From Desulfobacterales bacterium (lineage in GTDB: Bacteria; Desulfobacterota; Desulfobacteria; Desulfobacterales; JAFDCJ01): a stretch of 8,001 bases of DNA. A program made the translations under genes and the position numbers. The stretch is taken from the NCBI GenBank assembly GCA_020345785.1, contig CP070771.1:3699582-3707582 (forward strand). Reading direction: 5' to 3'. This document shows, piece by piece, positions 176-5,717 of the stretch. The notes beneath the pieces are model-generated. The model saw only the letters and a list, made by a program, of their open reading frames with translations, ran no database searches and was not told the origin of the DNA. The stretch's first letter is position 1. Every line of letters begins with the position of its first letter.

Positions 176-1258
176 TCAGAAAAGGATCATGCATTTTTGC
201 GGATTCAAATGCAGATAGAGATCATGCCCTTCTTCCTGAGGCACATAGTGCGGCACCTGCACCCGGATCATGGTGTCATTCACGTTCACGAAAAAATATA
301 GAAAATTACCCAGATACGCTTTGTGGGCAATGGCACCTTTGACCAAGTTTTCAGTGGTTTGAGGTGGTTCCGTAAAAATTGCCACATCCTCGGGGCGTAT
401 TGATGCATAGACTTTTTCGCCGGCCTTGACCGTCTTAGTGTCGGGCATCGTACACCGCATCTTCTCGCTGAATTCGGTACGCACGTAGACCTCGTTCGTG
501 TTCGCCAGAACCTCAATGACTTCCCCGGACATAAAATTCATGGTGCCGATGAAATCGGCCACAAATCTGTTGGCCGGCTTTTGGTAGATTTGCTCGGGCG
601 GACCGATTTGCACCACATGGCCCGCTTCCATGACGGCGATGCGATCTGAGATAACCATCGCTTCGGCCTGATCGTGGGTGACGTAAACCGATGTGATGCC
701 CATGCGTCTGACCAGACTTTTGATTTCAAATCTCAATTCTTCCCTGAGCTTGGCATCGAGGTTGCTCAGGGGTTCATCCAGCAGCAACACTTTAGGGTTG
801 CCGACCAGCGCCCGCGCCAGCGCCACCCGTTGCTGCTGTCCCCCGCTCAATTGGGCCGGGTACCTGTCTTCCAAGCCATCTAAACCCACCATTTCCAGGA
901 CCTTTTGCGCCTTTTCCTTGATCCGCTGTCTGGATAACCGCTGCAGTTTCAGGCCGTAGACAACATTATTGTATACCTTCATATGCGGCCAAACGGCATA
1001 GTTTTGAAACACCATGCCGATCCCCCTTTTGGACGGCTGAACAAACCCCTGTGACAGCATCGGTTTGCCGTCGATGACGATATCCCCCTCATCGGGCTTT
1101 TCCAGGCCGGCGATGCAGCGCAGGGTTGTTGTTTTGCCGCAGCCGCTGGGCCCGAGCAGCGTCAACATTTCACCCTTGTTCACCTCCAGCTGGATGTGAT
1201 TAATCGCCACGACGTTTTTAAAGCGCTTAAACAGGTTGTGGATCTCGATGAATGCCAT
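176..1258 (-). CDS. ABC transporter ATP-binding protein, Fbp/Pot type with TOBE domain
   Basis: This is the cytoplasmic ATPase that powers the importer encoded with it. All ABC landmarks are visible in the 360 residues: Walker A GPSGCGKT at 36-43, Q-loop Q85, signature LSGGQ at 137-141, Walker B LLLDEP ending near 163, D-loop SNLDA at 165-169 and H-loop H195. The C-terminal part, from about 240, reads as a TOBE-type beta domain (SIRPEDV near 287-292), as in PotA, FbpC, MalK and UgpC relatives. A GGAG motif lies 9 bases before the ATG, supporting this start. It is the last gene of the binding protein-permease-ATPase group but is separated from the permease by 387 bases of repeats. The length is normal and no key residue is missing. 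The family is certain; the substrate (iron, 2-aminoethylphosphonate, polyamine or other) is not. Confidence 0.95.
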   Translation of the reverse strand: MAFIEIHNLFKRFKNVVAINHIQLEVNKGEMLTLLGPSGCGKTTTLRCIAGLEKPDEGDIVIDGKPMLSQGFVQPSKRGIGMVFQNYAVWPHMKVYNNVVYGLKLQRLSRQRIKEKAQKVLEMVGLDGLEDRYPAQLSGGQQQRVALARALVGNPKVLLLDEPLSNLDAKLREELRFEIKSLVRRMGITSVYVTHDQAEAMVISDRIAVMEAGHVVQIGPPEQIYQKPANRFVADFIGTMNFMSGEVIEVLANTNEVYVRTEFSEKMRCTMPDTKTVKAGEKVYASIRPEDVAIFTEPPQTTENLVKGAIAHKAYLGNFLYFFVNVNDTMIRVQVPHYVPQEEGHDLYLHLNPQKCMILF

Positions 1259-1280
1259 TAAAATCTTCTCCCATAATGAT

Positions 1281-1321
1281 GGTTCAAAGGTTCAGCGTTC
1301 CGGGTTCAGGGTTCAAGGTTA
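1281..1321. repeat. 7-bp-period array, GTTCAGG words
   Basis: The word GTTCA or a one- or two-base variant starts at 1282, 1290, 1297, 1304, 1311 and 1318, giving spacings of 8, 7, 7, 7 and 7. It lies just upstream of the ATPase ribosome-binding region. Its reverse complement family (CTGAACC words) occurs at 1614-1641 on the far side of the gap, so the two can pair as arms of an imperfect hairpin; 1302-1321 matches the reverse complement of 1614-1634 with one gap and few mismatches. Confidence 0.75.
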
Positions 1322-1366
1322 TCATGACCCTAAACTCTTGTATGCGACTCATCAAAACCGATAAAA

Positions 1367-1396
1367 GGTTTCAGGTTTCGGGTGTCAGGTGTCAGG
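1367..1396. repeat. 7-bp-period array, GTTTCAG/GTGTCAG words
   Basis: Four consecutive heptamers: GTTTCAG (1368-1374), GTTTCGG (1375-1381), GTGTCAG (1382-1388) and GTGTCAG (1389-1395). The complementary words CCTGACA and CCTGAAA occur at 1591-1604, so this is the inner arm of a nested inverted arrangement in the ATPase-permease gap. No coding function is evident. Confidence 0.8.
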
Positions 1397-1459
1397 ATTT
1401 TCGCCGCGAGCCGCCTAATCCTCCAAAGGCATAAAAGTTTCGAAGATTGGGTTCACTCA

Positions 1460-1494
1460 TTCGACGTTCGATGTTCGATGTTCGACGTTCATCA
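1460..1494. repeat. 7-bp-period array, TTCGAYG words
   Basis: Four exact-phase heptamers: TTCGACG (1460-1466), TTCGATG (1467-1473), TTCGATG (1474-1480) and TTCGACG (1481-1487), followed by a decayed TTCATCA (1488-1494). Each unit carries a TCGA palindrome. The block sits near the middle of the gap, between the two inverted pairs of arrays. On the minus strand it reads in one frame as RRTSNIERR, a phrase I recognise as typical of spurious repeat-derived predicted proteins rather than of a gene. Confidence 0.85.
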
Positions 1495-1512
1495 GTTTCT
1501 TTTTCGATTCGA

Positions 1513-1579
1513 CTGGCTGCTCCTCGGCCAGCAGCAGCGCTGACATCCGCCTGCGCGGACGAAGCCGCAACGTCGCGGC
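1513..1579. repeat. Cluster of three short GC stem-loops
   Basis: Three small inverted repeats follow one another: GCTGCT (1516-1521) with AGCAGC (1530-1535); TCCGC (1546-1550) with GCGGA (1555-1559) around CTGC; and GCCGC (1564-1568) with GCGGC (1575-1579) around AACGTC. They fill the space between the TTCGAYG array and the C-rich arrays next to the permease stop. They could be structured RNA in the transcript or a small dispersed repeat. There is no gene evidence here. Confidence 0.45.
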
Positions 1580-1584
1580 GAAGG

Positions 1585-1641
1585 CCCGAAACCTGACACC
1601 TGAAACCATCTTCTAACCCTGAACCTCTGAACCCCCAAACC
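1585..1641. repeat. C-rich 7-bp-period arrays, CCTGAAA and CTGAACC words
   Basis: The block begins with the heptamers CCCGAAA (1585-1591), CCTGACA (1592-1598) and CCTGAAA (1599-1605), then passes into TGAACCT and CTGAACC words around 1620-1633. These are the reverse complements of the word families at 1367-1396 and 1281-1321, in mirrored order, so the two sides of the gap form a nested inverted arrangement. The block ends four bases short of the permease stop codon on the minus strand, so the repeat fills the gap right up to the coding edge. Confidence 0.75.
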
Positions 1642-1645
1642 TTTC

Positions 1646-3343
1646 TCACCCCTCGGCCCCCCAAGCGGCTTTGAGGACGCTTCCCCCGATCCTTGATATG
1701 ATCAGCAGCAGAATGAAGGTAATCACAATCATAAGAAACGCCATGGCGGAGGCAATGCCGAACTCCATGCCGCGGTGCCAGTTCAGATAGATTCCAATGG
1801 GCAGGGTCTCCCATCCGCCGCGATAAAGGAAGATCGCCGTAGAGATTTCCTGAAATGCCATAATGAAAAACATCACAACACCGACGAGCACCCCTTTCAG
1901 CAGCAGCGGCAGCGATATTTTAAAAAAAGTTCTGAATTTACCGGCGCCCGATACTTCGGAGGCTTCTTCGAGCGAAGGGTCCAGTTGCAAATAGGAGGAA
2001 TGTGCCATGCGTAAAAAATACGGCAACCGCCTTGCAAACAGCGCCAGCGGCATGATGATCCAATGCGTGGCCAAGGGTATGTCCTGCCAGAAAGCCAGCA
2101 GGTAACTCACACCGATCGCAATGCCCGGAAACGCCAGCATCAGGGTGATCACGAAATCAAGCGCATCTTTGCCCGGCACCCGGGTGCGGACCACAAGATA
2201 GGCCACCGGGAGCCCGAAGGCGATCCCGAAAATAAGGGCGATCCCGCTGAAGAGAAAAGAGTTTTTTATCAGCCCCGGAGTTTCCAGAAGGATGACCCTG
2301 AAATTTTCGAGGGTCCAATATGTCGGAAACGGTTCTAAGGTCCATCTGCGGGAGAAAGCACCCAGGCCGAGCACGATTGGGATCAGCAGGACGAGAATGG
2401 CGATGATAATCATGTACAAATACGCGCCTGATTTCACCGGCAGGCTGGGCTCGATGACTCTGCCTTCAGAAGTTGTTCCTTTAGAGAGGCCGGTATACTT
2501 TTTCTTCTCGACCCACCAGCGTGCCAGCAAAAAAAGGGAAATGCAAATGACGGAGGAAACGACCACCGCCACGATCCCCATGTACTTGCGGTGCACATCC
2601 GTAAAATGGTAGGCGATGTTGATGTACGAAACCGAGGGCAAAAAGTCCACTTGGCCCAGAATCTGAGGCGTGAGCCAGTCCGTAAAGGGCCACAGGAAGA
2701 CGAGTACGGCGCCCGCCAGATAACTTGGTGTGCAAAGCGGCAGGGTGACGGTGATGAATCTCCAGAAGCCGGATGCGCCTTCGACTTCGGCCGCCTCCTC
2801 GAAGGAAGGATCTATGTTGGTGAAACCGGCCGATAGACCGAGGACGATAAACGGCAGCATGTGCAGGGATTGAATGAATACCAACCCGTGTAAACCGTAT
2901 ATGAAATTGATGGGCTTCTCGGTCAGCCCCATATCCATCAAAAGCAGATTCAGGGTACCCCACTTGCCGAAAAAGATGATGAAAGCAAAAACGCCGGCAA
3001 AGGCCGGCAAAACAATCGGCAGCAGAATCAGGGCGGTGAAAACGGTCTTGCCCCGATGGCGGTAGCGCGCCAGAATATAAGCCAGGGGAACTCCAAAGAC
3101 AGTGGTCGTCAAAAGAACCAGCGTGCTTAAGAGCAGGGTATTGCCGAAAGTTTTAAGATAATACGTGTCCCTGAAAAACTCCAGATAATTGCCCAGGCCC
3201 CACCCGCCGGTGTCGGCAATTTTAAAGCTTTCCAGCACCAGAATGGACAGCGGAAAAATCACCAGGAAAGCAATGACCAGCCACAGGAGTGCTGCCAGAG
3301 AGATACTGCCGTCAGATCTTTTTTTGCTATATTGCATTTTCAA
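1646..3343 (-). CDS. ABC transporter permease with two fused membrane domains (FbpB/SfuB-like)
   Basis: This is the inner-membrane channel of the importer. Two homologous BPD_transp_1 halves are fused in one chain of about 565 residues, so a single protein can supply both permease domains. The ATPase-docking EAA loops are clear in each half: EEAAEVEGASGFWRF and EEASEVSGAGKFRTF, about 275 residues apart. Many hydrophobic helices surround them, and a hydrophilic linker lies midway (around WVEKKKYTGLSKG). This fused layout is typical of ferric-iron (FbpB/SfuB) and some phosphonate-type systems. The start is uncertain. A GAGG motif lies 8 bases before TTG at 3343, chosen here, and 14 before ATG at 3337, which would drop two residues. 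The longer reading frame from 3373 runs into repeat DNA and is unlikely. The family is secure; the substrate is unknown. Confidence 0.94.
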   Translation of the reverse strand: MKMQYSKKRSDGSISLAALLWLVIAFLVIFPLSILVLESFKIADTGGWGLGNYLEFFRDTYYLKTFGNTLLLSTLVLLTTTVFGVPLAYILARYRHRGKTVFTALILLPIVLPAFAGVFAFIIFFGKWGTLNLLLMDMGLTEKPINFIYGLHGLVFIQSLHMLPFIVLGLSAGFTNIDPSFEEAAEVEGASGFWRFITVTLPLCTPSYLAGAVLVFLWPFTDWLTPQILGQVDFLPSVSYINIAYHFTDVHRKYMGIVAVVVSSVICISLFLLARWWVEKKKYTGLSKGTTSEGRVIEPSLPVKSGAYLYMIIIAILVLLIPIVLGLGAFSRRWTLEPFPTYWTLENFRVILLETPGLIKNSFLFSGIALIFGIAFGLPVAYLVVRTRVPGKDALDFVITLMLAFPGIAIGVSYLLAFWQDIPLATHWIIMPLALFARRLPYFLRMAHSSYLQLDPSLEEASEVSGAGKFRTFFKISLPLLLKGVLVGVVMFFIMAFQEISTAIFLYRGGWETLPIGIYLNWHRGMEFGIASAMAFLMIVITFILLLIISRIGGSVLKAAWGAEG

Positions 3344-3360
3344 AGGCACGTCCTCTAAAA

Positions 3361-3404
3361 TCCTAAATACCAAGCACCAAATTCCAATAATCTAATGACC
3401 AAAA
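3361..3404. repeat. 7-bp-period array, CCAAAT words
   Basis: Six in-phase heptamers on the plus strand, including TACCAAG (3368-3374), CACCAAA (3375-3381), TTCCAAT (3382-3388) and TGACCAA (3396-3402). On the coding (minus) strand this reads as TTGG words just before the permease ribosome-binding site at about 3351-3356. The array may have been able to donate or displace translation signals for the permease. Confidence 0.75.
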
Positions 3405-3426
3405 CCTTATGGCAGCAGCAGCTGCC

Positions 3427-3522
3427 AGGCCGGTAAGTCGAAATGCTTAGAAGCTAAAAGGCCGGAAGGCTTGGAAAACAGGAGGTTTTGAAGCCGGTAA
3501 ACCGGTAAGCTTAAAAATTAGA
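3427..3522. repeat. 8-bp-period degenerate array, ARGCYGGT words
   Basis: Twelve consecutive octamers can be laid in phase, among them AGGCCGGT (3427-3434), AAGCTAAA (3451-3458), AGGCCGGA (3459-3466), AGGCTTGG (3467-3474), AAGCCGGT (3491-3498), AAACCGGT (3499-3506) and AAGCTTAA (3507-3514). The words are degenerate but nearly all begin AAG, AGG or AAA. The block at 3543-3622 is built from the reverse complement of the same word family, with a 20-base spacer between them. Confidence 0.65.
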
Positions 3523-3542
3523 CCAAATTAGCCCTCTATATT

Positions 3543-3622
3543 CCCAGCTTTGTAACCTCCCAGCCTAATAGCTTCCCAGCCTCATAGCCTCCCAGCTTTC
3601 CAGCCTCCCAGCCTTAAGCGTA
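3543..3622. repeat. 16-bp (2 x 8) tandem array, CCCAGCCT words
   Basis: Five 16-base units start at 3543, 3559, 3575, 3591 and 3607, each opening with CCCAGC; a typical unit is CCCAGCCTCATAGCCT (3575-3590). Each unit splits into two related octamers (CCCAGCCT, CATAGCCT). In reverse complement these are AGGCTGGG and AGGCTATG, the same family as the octamers at 3427-3522. The two blocks therefore face each other and could form a long imperfect hairpin in the binding protein-permease transcript. Confidence 0.85.
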
Positions 3623-3685
3623 GTAACCCTCCAACTCCAGATTGGTATTTAACCCGCTCGATTGGAGATTTTCTTGAGATTCCCG

Positions 3686-4978
3686 TTACGGCGCCACCAG
3701 CAGCGCACGCGCCTTGGATGCAGCCAGACGGGCAGCCGCATAGTTGCCATCATAGGCGAAGAGATTTCGCGCTTCTTTTATTTTGGCCTCGGCCTTGCTC
3801 ACATCCATGTTCTGACCTTTGGCTGCCTGGACTTCGCCCTCGACTTCCTCGATCAGGTACAGGCTGCTCTTCAATTCGCCCCATTTGCGGTAAATCTCGT
3901 ACTCATAGTAGCGGTTGACCTCGTCCCATCGCTTGGTGGCCAGATCCAGATCGTACTCGATGAATCCGACATCCAAATCCCAGAAAGAATCGACACCCAG
4001 CGCCTTCTGGGCATGCTCGGCCATTTCAACGCCTTCTTTCTCCCAAGCCGAGAATTTAATGTCTGTCCGGGCAGCAAAGTAGCGGCCCTCCAGCACGTAT
4101 TTCTGGCCGTCCATGCTGAACAGCCAGTCCAGAAAGATCTTGCCGACGGCTTCATTGGGTGCGCCCTTCAGCAAGGCCACCGCCTCCGGAACCAGGATCG
4201 TTTTTTCCGGCAGCAAATCTTTTACGGGATAGCCGTCTTTGCGCGCCGCCATGGCGTTCATCTGCGGCTGCGCAACCCCGATGGGGATTTCGCCGCGGCC
4301 CGTTAATTGGGTGGTATCGGTGCTGCCGGTGGAGAAGCGGGCCAGCTGGGCCGCCAGCGATCTCAGATACGCCCAGGCTTCCTTTTCGCCATAGGCCTGC
4401 ATTAGGATTTCGACGACTTCATGCATAGTGCCGGAGGCATACGGCAATGTATGCACGATAGAACCCCGGTAAATGGGATTGAGCAGATCGTTCCAGGTTT
4501 TGGGCGGCGGCAGCCTCAATCTTTTCAGAATCTTTTCGTTGTAAAGATTGGTGACGATCCAGGGCGCAAAACAGGTCCAATAATCATCTGCGTCCTTTAC
4601 CTTCATACCGTGCCATTCGGCGGGAATTTTGTCCCAGTCCTTCGGCCGGTAGGGGATTATCAGCCCCTCTTGCTTCAGGACTTGATGGGCCGGAGCGCCC
4701 GCCCCCAGGAAGACGTCGGCATCCGGCTTGCCCCCCCATGCTTTCACCTTGTCCACGCAAACCGGCCACCCTCCAGGCCGCACGAACGTGATTTCCACGT
4801 CCTTGCCATAGGTCTTCTTGTAATACTCCGTGAAACCCTTTCTCAGGCTGTCGGACAGCTCCTTGTAAACCGGACCGACCCAGCCGACTTTGTCGGCGGC
4901 CTGCGCCCCTGGATTCGGCAGCAGCAGGGCCATTGCAAGGGCCGCGCAGATGGTTGTGGTCAGGATTCTTTTTGTCAT
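3686..4978 (-). CDS. Secreted ABC transporter solute-binding protein with C-terminal helical extension
   Basis: This is the periplasmic receptor that captures the substrate for the permease/ATPase encoded downstream. The 430-residue chain starts with a Sec signal peptide: KR at 3-4, a hydrophobic core at about 8-20, and AQA ending at 27 as a likely cleavage site. The body resembles family 1 (FbpA/FutA/AEP-type) binding proteins: DADVFLGAGAPAH at 87-99, GLIIPY at 105-110, TWNDLLNPIYRG at 161-172, and IFLDWLFSMDGQKYV at 281-295. I do not see the paired tyrosines expected for FbpA-type iron binding, so iron is not supported. C74 and C136 could form a disulfide. From about 366 to 430 a charged, alanine-rich segment forms a predicted helical hairpin beyond the usual fold. 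AAGGAGG five bases before ATG 4978 fixes the start; the open frame continues upstream to GTG 5038 without such support. Confidence 0.93.
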   Translation of the reverse strand: MTKRILTTTICAALAMALLLPNPGAQAADKVGWVGPVYKELSDSLRKGFTEYYKKTYGKDVEITFVRPGGWPVCVDKVKAWGGKPDADVFLGAGAPAHQVLKQEGLIIPYRPKDWDKIPAEWHGMKVKDADDYWTCFAPWIVTNLYNEKILKRLRLPPPKTWNDLLNPIYRGSIVHTLPYASGTMHEVVEILMQAYGEKEAWAYLRSLAAQLARFSTGSTDTTQLTGRGEIPIGVAQPQMNAMAARKDGYPVKDLLPEKTILVPEAVALLKGAPNEAVGKIFLDWLFSMDGQKYVLEGRYFAARTDIKFSAWEKEGVEMAEHAQKALGVDSFWDLDVGFIEYDLDLATKRWDEVNRYYEYEIYRKWGELKSSLYLIEEVEGEVQAAKGQNMDVSKAEAKIKEARNLFAYDGNYAAARLAASKARALLVAP

Positions 4979-5174
4979 TTTGTCCTCCTTTCTGGTAAGG
5001 TGGTCGTATTTTAAAAAGGCGTTCTGGACTTCCGACACATGGTTAAAAAAACCCTATAATATTATTTGCAAATCTCCTCCTTTCAGATGGTTTGGGTGTT
5101 TAAATTGAACAGGCAAATTTCTTGAAAAGCGATATCGGCGCTATAAAGAATCGATCGTCGTTGGCGCAAATGCA
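4979..5174 (-). promoter_or_regulatory. Leader and probable promoter region of the transporter operon
   Basis: This untranslated stretch precedes the binding-protein gene on the minus strand. It holds two strong Shine-Dalgarno matches: AAGGAGG at 4984-4990, which serves the binding protein, and a second AAGGAGG at 5076-5082 about 90 bases upstream. The second is followed by TTG and only five sense codons before TAG, so at most a tiny leader peptide. The AT-rich run near 5055-5068 (AATAATATTATAG on the minus strand) could supply a -10 element, but no convincing -35 was found, so the promoter position is a guess. Confidence 0.4.
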
Positions 5175-5272: not shown

Positions 5273-5717
5273 ATGGAAACCATAGCGATTCACACGGCCC
5301 GCCGGCTTGCCCTGGCCCGCGCCGGTCTGCTCAAGCCCGAATTGACCGGCTTTCCGAAACGCGCCGCGGGTCGTTCGCTCCGCGCACGCAAAGCAGCCCA
5401 TCGTGTCATCCAGCGATTTGGGTACCTGCAGCTCGACACGGTTTCGATTGCCGGGGCCCGCAGCCATACGATCGTGCTTCTATCACGCCTCGAAGGTTTC
5501 GATCGGCTACTATTGCCTGCCGGTGCTTGCAGGGGACAGACTGGTGGCGCGAGTCGACCTCAAGGCCGACTGGAAGGGCCAAAAGTTGCAAGTGCTGTCG
5601 CAGCGGTTCGAGGCCGCAAATTCCGCCGGCGCAGTTGCTTCGGAAGATAGTGAGGCTGTGCGGACGGCACTCGCACGCTATGCAGGCGCCCTCGGGCTGC
5701 AGCCTTCGCAAAGATGA
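5273..5717 (+). pseudogene. ycaQ: Remnant of a ycaQ-family (HTH_42) DNA crosslink glycosylase gene, internally deleted
   Basis: Both ends of a YcaQ/AlkZ-type protein are readable but its middle is gone. From ATG 5273, 77 residues match the family N-terminus: ARRLALARAGL at 9-19, then RFGYLQLDTV at 48-57 carrying the Q-x-D signature (Q53, D55), and SHTIVLLSRLEGFD at 64-77. At about 5503-5505 the homology jumps to another frame, which continues GYYCLPVLAGDRLVARVDLK and ends ALGLQPSQR with TGA at 5715-5717; this is the family C-terminus. Compared with the roughly 400-residue family, about 250 central residues are missing and the frame shifts at the junction, so translation from 5273 would read into nonsense and end at 5650. 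Related enzymes unhook alkylated or crosslinked bases. AAGGAA before the ATG remains. The gene looks more GC-rich than its neighbours and is the only plus-strand gene, which fits a foreign or independently inherited origin. An assembly collapse is the alternative. Confidence 0.85.

Follow-up and report, generated by a model that had tools for sequence, protein, structure and literature searches.

The 387-nt spacer between the permease and ATPase genes of an ABC importer operon in a Desulfobacterales bacterium is probably a stack of foldback-like dispersed repeat elements. Arrays like those of the spacer are dispersed in related genomes, with arms in a one-way order, hairpins that nest without crossing and repeat units that follow an outer-to-inner order, and the operon differs between species. 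The structure belongs to these genomes and is not special to the transporter operon.

Nested hairpins in the transporter operon

The window, the whole stretch of DNA that was analysed (8,001 nt; assembly GCA_020345785.1, CP070771.1, positions 3,699,582-3,707,582 of the forward strand), carries on its minus strand, according to open reading frames and Pfam matches, the genes of the importer: a solute-binding protein (SBP; 3686-5038), a two-domain permease (1646-3343) and an ATPase (176-1258). The permease-ATPase spacer (1259-1645, minus strand) contains a nested hairpin, of which the outer part (family F1) has one arm of GGTTCAG words (1281-1321, core pairing 1281-1299; period 7/14) and a second arm of CTGAACC words (1614-1641, core pairing 1615-1633), and the inner part (family F2) has an arm of GGTTTCAG/GGTGTCAG words (1366-1396, period 7; inverted pairs I1-I4) and a second arm of CCTGAAACC/CCTGACACC words (1585-1607). 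Along the transcript the order is F1, F2, a GC-rich stretch, a third array (family F3, TTCGACG/TTCGATG; 1460-1490, 91% matches at period 7), another stretch, the reverse complement of F2, the reverse complement of F1 and the ATPase leader (1259-1274, minus strand), which includes the ribosome-binding-like stretch GGGAGAAG and lies outside the predicted hairpin as the unpaired 3' tail of the minimum-energy structure. The original prediction had placed a third array and GC stem-loops in the loop of the hairpin; the array and the GC-rich stretch are present, the F3 array as a single unpaired arm in the innermost loop that has no partner inside the gap. F3-like words were found in four pieces (L086, L089, L107, L169) of two complete chromosomes.

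In the gap, lag-7 identity is 0.403; dinucleotide shuffles have 0.251 (z 6.8), and none of the 500 reached the observed value. Lag 8 is raised too (0.346, z 4.2; 0/500 shuffles), as are lag 14 (z 3.2) and lag 15 (z 2.0); lags 3, 5, 6 and 9-13 have no excess over shuffles, and lag 4 is low. Tandem Repeats Finder gave rows of period 7 at 1289-1320, 1366-1396, 1460-1490 and 1588-1607, of period 14 at 1281-1320 and of period 8 at 1615-1634. These rows and the lag-7 excess bear out the heptamer arrays that the original prediction had located in the gap, but not the strict 7-bp period ascribed to them: steps of 7 and 8 nt are mixed in the outer blocks. The units in the window are GGTTCAG, GGTKTCAG and TTCGAYG.

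The arms had been described as mirrored. Their complementarity holds, with 1374-1396 pairing with 1585-1607 (87% complementary) and 1281-1299 with 1615-1633; the mirror order does not, the two F2 arms having equal words in another order. The minus strand of the gap folds at -162.9 kcal/mol, 42 kcal/mol better than the mean of 100 shuffles (-120.8 kcal/mol; z -7.9), and the plus strand has a z of -6.0, which supports the proposed long imperfect hairpin; folding and lag autocorrelation, both put forward as checks, exceeded their shuffled controls. There were no Rfam matches above the gathering score within the window, and no intrinsic terminator (GC stem plus T run) in 1259-1645, with two such sites across 1100-3800.

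A mirrored array recurs in the SBP-permease spacer (3344-3685, minus strand), here with period 8 (family F4, GGCTGGGAGG/GGGAAGCT; z of 6.0 at lag 8 and 6.8 at lag 16, fold z -5.1). The original prediction had not included this structure, of which one octamer arm (CCTCCCAGCCT and following; period 8/16/24 by Tandem Repeats Finder) occupies 3542-3616. The same spacer has a single TTTGGAATTTGG-type arm at 3344-3400 (GGTCATT..TTGGAATTTGGTGCTTGG, minus strand); in the corresponding spacer of locus L010, similar words are paired in inverted orientation. Elsewhere in the window, the stretch 60-175, downstream of the ATPase gene, has short palindromes (CCCGCC/GGCGGG) that make a small hairpin of a different type. 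Beside the operon, at 5273-5717, what seems to be a DNA glycosylase gene in decay is left as two overlapping plus-strand frames, of which the second has a weak AlkZ-like match (PF06224) that stays below the cut-off.

The same spacers in related genomes

A permease scan of public genomes yielded 70 loci, of which the best matches are Desulfobacterales and Deltaproteobacteria MAGs. Gaps were read for 29 of 60 relatives and for L194; 19 of the 60 gaps are no longer than 23 nt. The original prediction had looked to orthologous gaps, and these are divided. Some nine of the orthologous permease-ATPase spacers retain the F1 hairpin (window, L001, L003, L009, L010, L026, L027, L061, L194), a count that rests on reading of sequences and folds, with the degenerate L049 left out and with L191 and L192 being duplicates of L003 and L001. 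The spacers of L001, L003, L009, L061 and L194 are compact. Arrays of this kind are absent from the gaps, 13-110 nt long, of several near relatives (L002, L004, L005, L006, L020, L064, L066), among which those of L004, L005, L064 and L066 are 13-71 nt and array-free; L017, high by lag-7 identity, has no array on reading. An automatic array scan flagged 4/61 permease-ATPase and 5/61 SBP-permease spacers (the window included in each), and an F1 word test flagged 5/61 (window, L009, L026, L027, L061); these counts are low because short or worn arrays fall below the thresholds. In other species (L010, L027, L028, L039), the arrays of the SBP-permease spacer belong to families different from that of the window.

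A segment of 28-32 nt of the window's loop is common to the long gaps of L010 and L026 (scores reached by 0/500 base shuffles), and a 22-nt part of this segment occurs in the compact spacer of L061 (0/500 base shuffles). L026 also shares part of the window's GC-rich stretch (0/300 shuffles). The loop is thus partly old; the F2 hairpin may have entered here, or loop DNA may have been lost in the compact relatives. The right arm of F1 is well conserved in an alignment of five orthologues, a conservation that could reflect selection on the hairpin.

Dispersal of arrays with periods of seven and eight

Array words turned out to be widely dispersed when related genomes were searched, as the original prediction had suggested doing. 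The F2 word GGTKTCAGGTKTCAG is present in 132/389 genomes of the class, in up to 486 copies, and 32 of the 132 have at least 20 matches; the backward-read control of the word is non-zero in 5/389. The word was absent from all 60 genomes counted in the phylum to which an Acetothermia-titled locus belongs. Counted by lag with runs of N excluded, 1.2 Mb of the complete chromosome CP070694.1 (G003) has 63 intergenic arrays of lag 7 and 17 of lag 8; lags 9 and 10 give 3 and 2, and lags 4-6 and 11-13 none. Its called ORFs contain 9 arrays at lag 7 and 1 at lag 8, and no other lag below 14 has more than one there. In 0.8 Mb of CP070746.1 (G001) there are 15 intergenic arrays at lag 7, 3 at lag 8 and 2 at lag 6, and 200 kb from each of two further genomes (G004 and G005) has a single intergenic lag-7 array, with one lag-9 array in G004. 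Block-shuffled spacers of CP070694.1 yielded no array at any lag, nor did a 50-kb sample of E. coli K-12. Other 7/8-mer arrays are present in L012 and L024; those near the orthologous operon of L012 (CP070698.1) are 7-mer arrays of 70-110 nt with other units (GAGCTGA, GGGATAA).

The units are diverse. Across CP070694.1 and CP070746.1, the 127 period-7 arrays yield 75 different consensus heptamers, and 27 octamer arrays yield 20 consensus sequences. One-base steps join 108 of the 127 period-7 arrays in one single-linkage group, and the units are thus a continuum and not sharp families. Placement was counted in N-free spacers of at least 100 bp between genes called by a longest-ORF rule, which makes the spacer limits approximate. 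On this basis, arrays of CP070694.1 occur in 54/296 codirectional, 17/76 convergent and 7/101 divergent spacers, the divergent ones being poorer in arrays than the rest (7/101 versus 71/372, p 0.0024). No such rarity was found in CP070746.1 (4/61 divergent versus 17/259 others; codirectional 14/218, convergent 3/41).

Arm order and nesting

An inverted partner (score at least 14, within 400 bp) was found for 65 of 125 arrays of CP070694.1 and a direct partner for 12, compared with inverted partners in 61/625 control comparisons against the flanks of other arrays. The arms have a fixed direction. In 30 genomes selected as rich in F2 words, the convergent order GGTGTCAG-N10-40-CTGACACC occurs at 664 sites in 27/30 genomes and the reverse order at 9 sites in 4/30; these are pattern sites, of which a multi-unit hairpin can score several, and 3 of the 9 reverse sites are one repeated stretch. 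Neighbouring F2 arrays of CP070694.1 have the one-way order in 12/12 pairs, and GG-rich words form the 5' arm in both F1 and F2. Within arms, the TTT-type unit is outermost and the GTG-type unit innermost in 27 of 41 F2 runs, versus 2 with the opposite arrangement.

The array spacers of CP070694.1 contain 51 inverted pairs, versus 2 in shuffles, and where a spacer has at least two inverted pairs (8/91 array spacers) the arrangement is nested in 9 cases, sequential in 1 and crossed in 0; CP070746.1 has no spacer with at least two inverted pairs. The order found in the window, F1 outside and F2 inside, recurs in an unrelated spacer of CP070694.1 (115268-115541), and another (187642-188177) has F2 outside F1, so the stacking order is not fixed. 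Stretches of 29-83 nt, by eye other array families, are shared with another F2 loop by 7/12 F2 loops of CP070694.1, and no loop among these 12 is common to two loci as a whole. Local origin as a palindrome, by fold-back priming that copies one arm from the other, was set aside because an arm is no more similar to its own partner (0.546) than to the arms of other loci (0.575; 12 pairs, CP070694.1).

F2 arrays inside transposed elements of other genomes

Forty regions around F2 hairpins with recurring loops, chosen and not random, were compared from G257, G212, G199, G163 and G173. In the first four of these genomes, F2 arrays are carried within inverted-ended elements. The end test covered three of four element types, A, B and C (the other 6 regions being of type D), and in 19/34 copies the two ends are on the same strand and enclose F2 words in both orientations: 10/15 copies of type A (GGGTGTAAATCA/TGATTTACACC), 3/10 of type B and 6/9 of type C (GGCATCCTTCATT/AATGAAGGATGCC). 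Exact target duplications of 8-10 bp flank 11 of the 19 two-ended copies, and 0/342 mismatched flank pairs reach 8 bp. The inverted ends and target duplications indicate that heptamer arrays travel inside transposed elements in those genomes. The MITE-like elements with 8-10-bp duplications that carry arrays are at L221-L230 and L243-L248. In L226, L232, L233 and L245, a small palindromic insert (CCCGCCCTGG..CGGTCTGGGCC) splits heptamer arrays; in sister copies such as L230 they are unbroken.

For the F1/F2 hairpins of the window, no element of this sort was found among the loci compared. Two of the three non-array parts of its gap have no match among the loci compared, and the third has none at E 0.01. 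In CP070694.1, array spacers share masked sequence with another spacer more often than the remainder (24/94 versus 87/550, p 0.026), an excess that is gone under a stricter array mask (14/94 versus 71/550, p 0.62), and thus no mobile core is shown for that chromosome. The window's own hairpins may nevertheless have arrived by the same route as the transposed F2 arrays elsewhere, or by a like one.

Origin of the nested hairpins

If the gap is a stack of foldback-like elements, each element would be a hairpin with a variable loop and with arms, fixed in their order, that consist of short runs of 7- or 8-nt units. The outer F1 hairpin, common to the window and near relatives, would be one such element, downstream of the permease stop and ahead of the ATPase leader, with the F2 hairpin and the F3 arm inside its loop. 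Elements would gather in spacers, also within one another, and the arrays would afterwards lengthen, shorten and mutate. The hairpins of the window would be mostly neutral, the RNA hairpin being a side effect. The target duplications of 8-10 bp make this foldback-like reading slightly likelier, and slightly lower the standing of the two explanations that invoke a function in the RNA or the DNA.

The first of these, that the intercistronic hairpin sets the processing, stability or translation of the mRNA and thereby the ATPase:permease ratio, is unlikely, even with a fold z of -7.9, a ribosome-binding-like stretch that stays unpaired, an F1 hairpin kept in about nine orthologous gaps and, in CP070694.1, arrays that are rare between divergent genes. 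It can also point to the second hairpin after the SBP gene, a position at which stem-loops set ABC transporter stoichiometry in Clostridia, according to the available text of one report (PMC9045158). Near relatives with the same operon, however, have short array-free gaps, the families in the SBP-permease spacer vary between species, 1259-1645 has no terminator-like site, and like arrays lie in many unrelated spacers. The tuning of ATPase level offered in the original prediction accordingly finds no support in the array-free orthologous gaps, the changing families of the SBP-permease spacer and the dispersal of the array words; the RNA hairpin could still act on the ATPase. Less probable again is a DNA-level role, in which the arrays paired on opposite strands would be binding platforms for a nucleoid protein, by analogy with a proposal for Geobacter metallireducens. 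There, as far as the available text of the genome paper extends, strand-switching pairs of MTYCTGA are annotated as predicted sites of a global regulator, possibly IHF/HU (PMC2700814), and the F2 unit, written CTGAMAC, comes within one position of that consensus in arms of fixed order. A spectrum of 75 consensus heptamers in 127 period-7 arrays is nonetheless wide for one protein, and a 7-nt step is out of register with the helical repeat of DNA.

Plain slippage, by which microsatellites would have arisen independently at each place, suits the variation of units within arrays and of lengths between loci. Slippage alone fails to predict inverted partners (65 inverted versus 12 direct), one-way order (664 versus 9) or the outer-to-inner order of units (27 versus 2), and these features make it a very improbable account. 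REPINs, which are inverted pairs of REP sequences mobilized by REP-associated Y1 transposases, resemble the hairpins in their inverted pairs, fixed polarity and variable spacer, and Y1_Tnp matches are present in 15/15 F2-rich versus 12/15 F2-free genomes (131 versus 68 matches in total). The arrays do not keep company with these transposases, however: an F2 array lies within 600 bp of 0/40 Y1_Tnp genes, versus 18/300 random genes of CP070694.1, and any 7/8 array is near 4/40 versus 66/300, the 40 genes being from seven F2-rich genomes, some with flanks cut by contig ends, and the control from one genome. The lack of arrays beside these 40 genes weakens the REP/REPIN reading, inverted pairs of fixed polarity being present all the same, and an origin of this kind is highly doubtful.

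Comparison with known repeats

Cyanobacterial STRR are tandem repeats of heptanucleotides with sequences other than those of the window, and to our knowledge inverted pairing is not a defining feature of them. The original prediction had taken them as the nearest analogy; the class of repeat was right, but there are closer counterparts in Xanthomonas and Geobacter metallireducens. The available text of a 2015 study reports heptameric repeats as over-represented in many bacterial genomes, with no detailed literature at that time, and describes GGGAATC repeats in convergent pairs in Xanthomonas and GGGGAYT in Nostoc, with mention of heptanucleotides in Calothrix (PMC4692102). The array-rich relatives of the window share with Xanthomonas the many intergenic tandem heptamers (63 lag-7 arrays in 1.2 Mb of CP070694.1) and the convergent pairs on opposite strands (664 versus 9 sites in the 30 genomes selected). 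In contrast, GGGAATC, with its three-G tracts, is absent from the units of the window, and in Xanthomonas there is one G4-type unit, with no nested multi-family structures or octamer families described in the available text (PMC4692102).

In Geobacter metallireducens, the genome paper, as available, lists paired heptanucleotide sites, among them class 3 with the consensus MTYCTGA, and a 49-copy GGGACCG family (PMC2700814). Class 3 likewise consists of deltaproteobacterial tandem heptanucleotides paired on opposite strands. The F2 unit does not fit the class 3 consensus (CTGAMAC versus CTGAMTY, one position off), and the class has 16 sites, five units long in all but one case, that are read as regulator sites, with nesting of families unmentioned in the available text (PMC2700814). 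Marine Beggiatoaceae also have abundant intergenic heptamer arrays, TAACTGA repeats that are patchy across distant phyla, but according to the available text these are direct repeats (169 sets, one indirect), most of them just upstream of start codons (PMC4679880).

Bacterial MITEs are a further point of comparison: the F2 arrays of G257, G212 and G163 are within inverted-ended elements with 8-10-bp duplications; for the hairpins of the window, none was found among the loci compared. Foldback and Galileo of Drosophila are eukaryotic elements of the P-element superfamily, of kilobase size, with long, internally repetitive inverted arms and a variable middle; their likeness to the hairpins of the window is one of structure only.

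Significance

Repeats of this kind have been described in Xanthomonas (PMC4692102) and in Geobacter metallireducens (PMC2700814). Nesting, the one-way order of units, the spectrum of many units and the location in MITEs are not among the descriptions in the available text of these two papers. No description of nested heptamer hairpins in Desulfobacterota was found in the literature searched, which lay outside most subscription journals and is no proof of absence.

Tentatively, and with more doubt than confidence, the arrays could represent a prokaryotic class of foldback elements in Desulfobacterota and some other bacteria, in which arms have a one-way order and a process sets the 7/8-nt period and not the sequence, and which would build onion-like stacks by entry into one another's loops and ride in MITEs. 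The array step of such a class would need an enzyme or a replication step with a 7/8-nt ruler. In this clade there are dozens of heptamer units, one-way inverted pairs, nesting and, in some genomes, carriage by transposed elements, with almost no other short period. Strong fold scores in array-bearing spacers need not signal regulatory RNA, and the old question of why the number is seven, and what makes heptamer repeats, becomes testable.
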